Below the pieces are notes generated by a model, which had not been told where the DNA came from, ran no database searches, and saw only the letters and a list, made by a program, of their open reading frames with translations. From NCBI RefSeq assembly GCF_018882325.1, contig NZ_JACVOQ010000005.1, positions 124,001 through 188,000 on the forward strand: a DNA stretch of 64,000 nt. Reading direction: 5' to 3'. This DNA is from Polynucleobacter sp. 78F-HAINBA (GTDB lineage: Bacteria > Pseudomonadota > Gammaproteobacteria > Burkholderiales > Burkholderiaceae). Shown here in pieces: positions 27,244 to 28,410 of this stretch. Within the stretch, counting starts at the first letter, position 1, and each line of letters opens with the position of its first letter. The position numbers were made by a program, and so were the translations under genes.

Positions 27244-27550
27244 GCAGAGTCAATTGGGCAATCGCCGCCTCTTTATTGAGGGGGAGGAAAGTCCGGACTC
27301 CATAGGGAAGGGTGATGGCTAACGGCCATCCACGGTGACGTGAGGAATAGGGCCACAGAGACGAGCGTATTTAGTTACGGTGAAACGCGGTAACCTCCAC
27401 CTGGAGCAATCCCAAGTAAGCAGGCGATGAGGCGTCCCGCTGAGTCTGCGGGTAGGGAGCTTGAGCCGTCAGGTAACTGCCGGCCTAGAGGAATGATTGC
27501 CCCTAGATGCAAATCTAGGCGACAGAATCCGGCTTATCGATTGACTCTGC
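27244..27550 (+). ncRNA. rnpB: RNase P RNA, bacterial type A
   Basis: The catalytic RNA of RNase P, which trims tRNA 5' ends. The conserved core is evident: gaggaaagtccggactcc near 27283, the ccacagagac segment near 27351, and the 3' core with cgacagaatccggctt near 27520. The ends are set by the terminal P1 pairing gcagagtcaa (27244-27253) with ttgactctgc (27541-27550). A TAGACT at 27232-27237 is a candidate -10. No terminator hairpin is visible after it; the convergent OsmC gene stops 14 bp later. This fills the 385-bp gap between pyrC and the OsmC gene. Confidence 0.96.
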
Positions 27551-27563
27551 ACTTTCTAAATAC

Positions 27564-27989: not shown

Positions 27990-28111
27990 GTTAGTGACCC
28001 CTAAATTACAAAATTTATCAATATTATCAATAGTTTACCAATAATATTGAACTTCAGTTGCTAGTCCAATTTGGCAAAAAAGCATCAAAAACTTGATTTT
28101 GGTCAATTTTC

Positions 28112-28141
28112 TTGCGTCGCACCATATATCTTGTGTAGAAT
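28112..28141 (+). promoter_or_regulatory. Candidate sigma-70 promoter of the small RNA
   Basis: TTGCGT (28112-28117), an 18-base spacer and TAGAAT (28136-28141). AT-rich sequence lies upstream. The predicted start is near 28148, at the base of the first RNA hairpin. Confidence 0.55.
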
Positions 28142-28147
28142 AACCAT

Positions 28148-28250
28148 ATTGGTAGTCAGTCTTATACAAGACTGCGACTTACCTCCCAGTGTCTCCTCCA
28201 CTTAAAACATAGGTGGATTCCAACCCAGGACTCGTTCCTGGGTTTTTTTT
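28148..28250 (+). ncRNA. Candidate small RNA (or terminated leader) upstream of rplM
   Basis: A promoter and a strong terminator define a transcript of about 103 nt. It would fold into three hairpins. The first (28151-28183) pairs cagtctt with aagactg around a 4-base loop, extended by outer pairs of ggta with tacc across small bulges. The second (28197-28217) pairs tccac with gtgga. The third is the terminator. The linker 28184-28196 is unpaired and CU-rich, and with the flanking bases carries cctccc and ctcctcc, which are complementary to Shine-Dalgarno sequences. I do not recognise an Rfam family. An attenuated rplM leader is the alternative. Confidence 0.5.
28222..28250 (+). terminator. 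Strong rho-independent terminator ending the candidate small RNA
   Basis: Perfect 9-bp stem aacccagga/tcctgggtt (28222-28230 with 28236-28244), a 5-base loop and a run of eight T residues to 28250. It lies 160 bp before rplM, with no protein gene upstream on this strand, so it must end some non-coding transcript. Confidence 0.88.
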
Positions 28251-28410
28251 AGGTTACAATTCAAGGCTTTACTGGATTACCGAGCCGGTCAGCGGTAATT
28301 TGTTGTACCAGTTAAATTGCAGAATCTGCGAGCTTGCAAACATAAGCAGGGCCAAGGTGGACGTAATTTGGTTGGGGTAATTTTTTTTGACCATAACAAT
28401 TTGAGAAATC

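Follow-up and report, generated by a model that had tools for sequence, protein, structure and literature searches.

RF02278 (Betaproteobacteria_toxic_sRNA) is a family of small RNAs attributed to Kimelman et al. 2012. In Burkholderia cenocepacia, ncS03, ncS05, ncS27 and ncS62 have been presented as homologous 'double-hairpin RNAs', among which ncS27 is described as an RNA of 92 nt with a processing site that leads to the double-hairpin form; its overexpression was reported to slow planktonic growth, with no significant effect on biofilms, and its predicted pairing often covered ribosome-binding sites (PMC4603805, PMC5688073). NcS27 has since been summarised as a regulator of metabolic shutdown (2024 review, PMC10987360), and four family members were reported from Herbaspirillum (PMC7011215). 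The related S17 of Bordetella pertussis was described as a 190-nt RNA that RNase E processes to 67 nt; the ribosome-binding site or its vicinity was complementary to it in 70 of the 92 genes affected, many of which encode transporters, while S17S overexpressed in E. coli was stated to cause mild inhibition only (PMC11722255). For Polynucleobacter, one paper on small RNAs (PMC8632094) describes other motifs.

Two matches were obtained when the window (the whole 64,000-nucleotide stretch of DNA analysed, from Polynucleobacter sp. 78F-HAINBA) was scanned with Rfam, one to RNase P RNA and the other to RF02278, 'Betaproteobacteria toxic small RNA', at 28190-28251 on the plus strand (51.3 bits, E 2.2e-07). 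The latter match spanned model positions 1-64, that is, all 64 positions of the model, and exceeded the gathering cut-off of 50 bits, although the narrowness of this difference (51.3 versus 50) counts against the family assignment. The matched region comprised two hairpins, the second being a Rho-independent terminator, with changes on both sides of the stem in 2/8 and 4/9 pairs, respectively; 5' of them lies a CU-rich segment, unpaired in the predicted fold, that is complementary to ribosome-binding sites. An earlier suggestion of cuckoo RNAs (Rhodobacter) as the family was not borne out, as none was listed by the Rfam scan, though Rfam may hold no cuckoo model; judged from the sequence, the actual family is the betaproteobacterial 'toxic' or double-hairpin sRNA. 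Cuckoo RNAs of Rhodobacter presumably likewise have a CU-rich single strand. The locus very probably encodes a family sRNA of the RF02278 type that pairs with ribosome-binding sites, and the sRNA gene is probably conserved and functional, as predicted from its sequence. The first-pass annotation had called for an Infernal search against Rfam, which placed the candidate above the gathering cut-off, and had proposed an sRNA that stands alone, acts in trans and has an unpaired anti-Shine-Dalgarno stretch; this class appears to be right, given the RF02278 match and the action reported for characterised relatives (PMC5688073, PMC11722255). The kind of RNA is already known, the family having been described in Betaproteobacteria, and the locus confirms it rather than revealing a new kind.

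A primary transcript of about 103 nt was predicted at 28148-28250 (plus strand), with its start placed from the -10 box. The promoter-like TTGCGT-N18-TAGAAT proposed earlier was found in place, with the -35 box TTGCGT at 28112-28117 and, 18 nt further on, the -10 box TAGAAT at 28136-28141 (both on the plus strand). Per-base agreement of 57 orthologues with the window was 0.98, 0.98, 0.42, 0.98, 0.98 and 1.00 across the -10 box, and CTTGC-N18-22-TANAAT was present in 42 of the 57 orthologous upstream regions, compared to a rate of 0.0006 in mononucleotide shuffles. Although the TTGCGT/TAGAAT promoter was not reported by a generic sigma-70 scan of the window, this conservation supports it. Sigma-54 promoters have a GG-GC distance of 10; a sigma-54 promoter was rejected at this locus, where GG and GC are 11 nt apart and the GG is not conserved. 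Upstream of the promoter, an FNR-like inverted repeat, TTGATTTTGGTCAA (28093-28106), constitutes a candidate regulator site, resembling the FNR site, TTGAT-N4-ATCAA. TTGA-N6-TCAA was found in 36/57 orthologous upstream regions (0.0058 in mononucleotide shuffles), and the genome encodes a Crp/Fnr-family protein (226.5 bits, against a cut-off of 228 for the Fnr subfamily model). The centre of the repeat lies approximately 48 nt upstream of the predicted transcription start, which is not known as a standard activating position.

The predicted transcript (28148-28250) folded with a z score of -4.47, its stability being above that of all 200 dinucleotide shuffles, and the 61-nt 3' part alone gave a z score of -4.12. 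In the minimum-energy fold, the two hairpins previously annotated were recovered at 28151-28183 (the 5' hairpin, the sequence of which is unconserved while its fold is kept in many lineages) and at 28197-28217 (hairpin 2 of the core), both on the plus strand. The Rho-independent terminator and its U-run (28222-28250, plus strand), which matched in the terminator scan, contained the perfect 9-bp stem claimed (28222-28230/28236-28244) as well as the eight T (28243-28250), but two of these eight T fall inside the stem. This terminator was one of 7 terminator-like sites in the window, where shuffles gave 3.7. The RF02278 double-hairpin core extends over 28190-28251 (plus strand), with a predicted processed form at 28190-28250. 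No protein gene of useful size precedes the terminator on the plus strand, as had been pointed out, the OsmC gene being on the minus strand; the sole plus-strand frame of at least 40 aa ending just before the terminator has 44 aa (28071-28205). Promoter-like and terminator sequences were both conserved among the orthologues, and the intergenic gene may be transcribed independently.

Covariation was analysed in an alignment of 47 distinct sequences (the 57 orthologues minus 10 identical rows). Both-side changes occurred in 19 of 30 pairs, compared to 14.5 in shuffles and 9-14 in slid versions, and the covariation score was 0.254, versus 0.134 in shuffles and 0.047-0.144 with partners slid; overall, 85.1% of cells were paired in the proposed structure (47 sequences). 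For helix 1 (the 5' hairpin), 72.5% of cells were paired and all 13 pairs had some both-side changes, counts that are soft because alignment of the 5' leaders is poor between distant clades. Helix 2 (28197-28217) was paired in 89.6% of cells, with both-side changes in 2/8 pairs, including a C-G/U-G/U-A exchange at one; its U-A pair in columns 63/71 was non-standard in 35 of the 47 sequences. The terminator stem was paired in 99.5% of cells and had both-side changes in 4/9 pairs. The compensatory changes sought in the OsmC-rplM gap of relatives were present in the core stems, and the proposed check for conservation of hairpins and promoter in close relatives found the core stems kept and the promoter motif in 42/57. 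Among the distinct 5' leaders of the genus, 29 of 41 stood out as unusually stable (z below -1), as did 8 of 16 from other genera; that stability was not unusual in the other 12/41 and 8/16, respectively, weighs against the reading given here.

The CU-rich linker had been put forward as a possible Shine-Dalgarno pairing site, and one of its two runs proved invariant. While the first, CCUCCC (28182-28187, plus strand), was intact in 28/57 orthologues and is not invariant, the second, UGUCUCCUCC (28190-28199, plus strand), was found in 57/57 genus orthologues, in 16/16 loci linked to rplM in other genera and in each of the 30 top-scoring family loci that were fetched, and is therefore likely to be the functional one. 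This seed is complementary to ribosome-binding sites GGAGGAGACA, and UGUCUCC was unpaired in the predicted fold.

Candidate targets were looked for in the same genome, which also encodes Hfq. GGAGACA-N0-8-ATG occurred at 24 places, compared to 13 for the reversed control; at 19 of these an open frame of at least 60 aa begins, though some of the frames (such as L160 and L153) look internal to larger genes, and six of the frames were, by our reading, periplasmic substrate-binding proteins. A test class was made up of all listed 13 TctC (PF03401) and 4 Peripla_BP_6 (PF13458) genes (n = 17), and a comparison set, widened from a 46-gene control, of 243 open frames of at least 150 aa from the window and 12 further stretches. 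GGAGAC was present at most 25 nt upstream of 9/17 TctC/Peripla_BP_6 genes and 1/243 others (p = 1.8e-11), and, among GGAG-carrying genes, at 9/14 binding-protein genes and 1/27 others (p = 5e-5), p-values that overstate independence, as the class was chosen post hoc, after pattern matches had been seen, and the 13 TctC genes are paralogues. Seed pairing was stronger at binding-protein genes (p = 3e-8; p = 0.006 within GGAG genes), and pairing with the 16S tail was also stronger there, though less so (p = 2e-4). In a genome of another genus (G239, 35 stretches), GGAGAC was found at 1/4 binding-protein and 11/447 other genes (p = 0.1, with four genes only in the class), and the corresponding values for seed and 16S pairing were p = 0.05 and p = 0.66 (4 binding-protein genes in 451).

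One binding-protein gene carries GGAGGAGACA two bases before an ATG. This gene was present in 10 of the 31 genomes searched (all of the genus, own genome included), the encoded proteins being 88-100% identical, and the site was kept in 9/10 while the upstream DNA varies. An in-frame ATG lies just upstream of GGAGGAGACA in 9/10 loci, so that the site could be coding and the true start is uncertain. Another strong site, AGTGGAGGAGACG, precedes the ATG of a gene that resembles the molybdenum hydroxylase FAD subunit, albeit with scores short of every equivalog cut-off. Separately, the 12 bases of GTGGAGGAGACA (L149, around position 1500) complement the sRNA seed region perfectly; they lie approximately 100 nt ahead of the start of a TctC gene, possibly in its 5' UTR. 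The concentration of seed sites at binding-protein genes, together with the published relatives, suggests translational repression of uptake genes; taken alone, uptake genes as the target class stand at about an even chance.

An RNA with this seed, which includes CCUCC, might instead be a decoy that imitates the anti-Shine-Dalgarno tail of the 16S rRNA and lowers translation in general. The invariant part of the seed, however, extends to UGU, which is not known to be part of the 16S tail. Compared to GGAG sites of other kinds, GGAGAC was also overrepresented at the binding-protein genes (9/14 versus 1/27, in a post-hoc class containing paralogues), and we regard such general interference as highly improbable, even though overexpression of ncS27 slows growth (PMC5688073).

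With regard to distribution, the genome itself gave one RF02278 match at E ≤ 0.001. It contains 24 exact GTCTCCTC sites, 7 of which are followed by five consecutive T at a distance of up to about 90 nt; as candidates for further copies these were rejected, the site in the window alone being outside frames of at least 100 codons. In the genus, 86 of 101 genomes matched RF02278 at E ≤ 0.01 (63 over the cut-off), and in the family 137 of 150 (133 over the cut-off; 15 of the 150 genomes from the genus); in the family's other genera, a genome could have as many as 10 matches (E ≤ 0.01). The 14 control genomes produced one match, in Caulobacter vibrioides, which was below the cut-off. A total of 71 genus loci were fetched, own included (L001-L031, L062-L101), of which 57, from 57 of the 86 matching genus genomes, were kept as orthologues. 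The 14 left out comprised 13 loci of divergent weak classes (L066, L068-L079) and L067, a contig end with a truncated sRNA copy, where the adjoining sequence is presumably sequencing adapter.

Eight of the divergent loci (L066, L068, L072, L074-L078) had weak RF02278 matches 59-60 nt past the stop of a like-ending gene, which proved to be a phasin gene (PF09361) in L066, the one locus tested. These matches have the seed UGUCUCCUC in common and hairpins different from those of the locus, which suggests that an sRNA bearing this seed derives from the 3' UTR. A second divergent short double-hairpin class, with AGUCUCCUCCAU and a terminator, was seen in four genus genomes (L069, L070, L071, L073), with no rplM in the fetched stretch.

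Among the 57 orthologues, rplM (ribosomal protein L13, PF00572; 28411-28839 on the plus strand in the window) was downstream on the same strand in 56, at 142-161 nt from the match, the exception being a contig end (L007), and the OsmC-like protein gene (PF02566; 27564-27989, minus strand) was divergent upstream in 55, the exceptions being L081 and L084. Farther upstream on the plus strand are the class A RNase P RNA gene (27246-27552, Rfam scan) and an amidohydrolase-family gene (named pyrC in this analysis). The rplM loci of other genera came from 24 genomes representing 23 genera of the family, and 20 of the 24 were scanned with Rfam (L122-L125 were left out, L122 and L123 being without exact GTCTCCTC). 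Among the scanned loci, 16/20 had RF02278 on the strand of rplM and upstream of that gene (15 over the cut-off), at a distance of 167-669 nt, indicating that the sRNA at the rplM position is old in the family. RNase P RNA was also observed in 11 of these 16 sRNA-carrying loci, some of the matches being partial. A sequence pattern drawn from locus g20 matched Paraburkholderia metrosideri alone, so the genus in question is probably Paraburkholderia. When the 30 family loci with the best scores (L032-L061) were searched by tblastn, no OsmC, rplM, rpsI or pyrC was detected out to about 1.5 kb.

The same-strand linkage to rplM in 56/57 genus loci and in 16/20 loci of other genera would fit the alternative offered in the first-pass annotation, an attenuated 5' leader of rplM-rpsI in which conditional read-through of the terminator controls L13/S9 synthesis in cis. 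Such a tie is contradicted by the many genomes of related genera with several matches, by the 30 best-scoring family loci, which lack all four neighbours, by the variable spacing to rplM in other genera (167-669 nt) and by the 4/20 scanned rplM loci from which the sRNA is absent, and a terminator stem paired in 99.5% of cells argues in the same direction. Moreover, a TACAAT box (within TTACAAT; 28255-28260, plus strand) directly follows the sRNA terminator, with positions 28255, 28256, 28258, 28259 and 28260 identical in 57/57 rows and 28257 in 0.86; no good -35 box was seen for it, and it is possibly the -10 box of a separate rplM promoter. Because of the extra copies elsewhere in related genera, the variable distance to rplM and the conserved TTACAAT box, an rplM attenuator is very unlikely. 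Hardly any weight can be given to a decayed family member, present as a single copy barely over the threshold and with its function lost, since the seed is retained in 57/57 orthologues while the adjoining DNA changes and both core stems are maintained by compensatory changes, even if the score is just over the cut-off, which 63/101 genus genomes pass.

In favour of a pairing sRNA of the RF02278 type, the analysis placed the locus in the family by covariance model and found its position, promoter, fold and terminator to be conserved, its seed to be invariant, and seed-complementary sites to be concentrated at binding-protein genes of the genome. The single-copy, trans-encoded sRNA would be transcribed from its own promoter as an RNA of about 103 nt ending at the Rho-independent terminator. 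Trimming inside the CU-rich linker, or immediately ahead of it, would probably yield a double-hairpin form of about 61 nt starting near UGUCUCC. Together with Hfq, on which it may depend, UGUCUCCUCC is predicted to pair with ribosome-binding sites of the type GGAGACA or GGAGGAGACA, and the pairing would block translation; the proteins affected would chiefly be periplasmic substrate-binding proteins with organic and amino acids as ligands, and a brake on nutrient uptake would be the putative net effect. A specific and checkable target class is in this way indicated, namely substrate-binding-protein genes whose start codon is preceded by GGAGACA. A more speculative and rather doubtful extension gives the sRNA, through its single GGAGACA-reading seed and the FNR-type site, the role of a master brake that is linked to oxygen or redox state and acts on many periplasmic substrate-binding proteins; in this extension, the same nine-base seed is also used on a different scaffold in the phasin-gene 3' UTR of other species of the genus. 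If this joint reading were true, one RNA code would serve both uptake and carbon storage.

Compared to described systems, the locus resembles the NmsR sibling sRNAs of Neisseria meningitidis, in which CU-rich unpaired stretches are complementary to ribosome-binding-site regions (PMC5688073), but the siblings form a tandem pair with TCA-cycle targets as described, and the likeness is drawn from their published description. It resembles ncS27 in that a divergent upstream neighbour, BCAL3349, is tabulated for the latter (PMC4603805, PMC5688073), and in that several rplM-linked copies of other genera can be read as a core preceded by a promoter and a short 5' stem, with a length like that of ncS27; in contrast, the downstream neighbour listed for ncS27, BCAL3348a, is convergent, and so not in the rplM orientation. 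The transcript at the locus was predicted at about 103 nt, and ncS27 may be its orthologue, as judged from the published description of that RNA. With S17, the locus would have in common pairing at ribosome-binding sites and transporter targets, and positions 2-28 of S17S, which include both target sites, are reported to be 100% conserved in various Betaproteobacteria (PMC11722255); S17 differs, according to its description, in its 190-nt precursor, its position between a glycosyltransferase gene and coq7, and its higher level in virulence mode. Relative to the RF02278 family as a whole, the UGUCUCCUCC seed, the two hairpins and the terminator are alike, whereas the locus has an extra 5' hairpin, of about 40 nt, upstream of the model, and its genome contains one match, compared to up to 10 in other genera. 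The locus is probably a single-copy regulatory RNA gene in a small-genome relative, rather than one of several copies as elsewhere, and this single copy would permit a clean deletion test of what a widespread betaproteobacterial family does.
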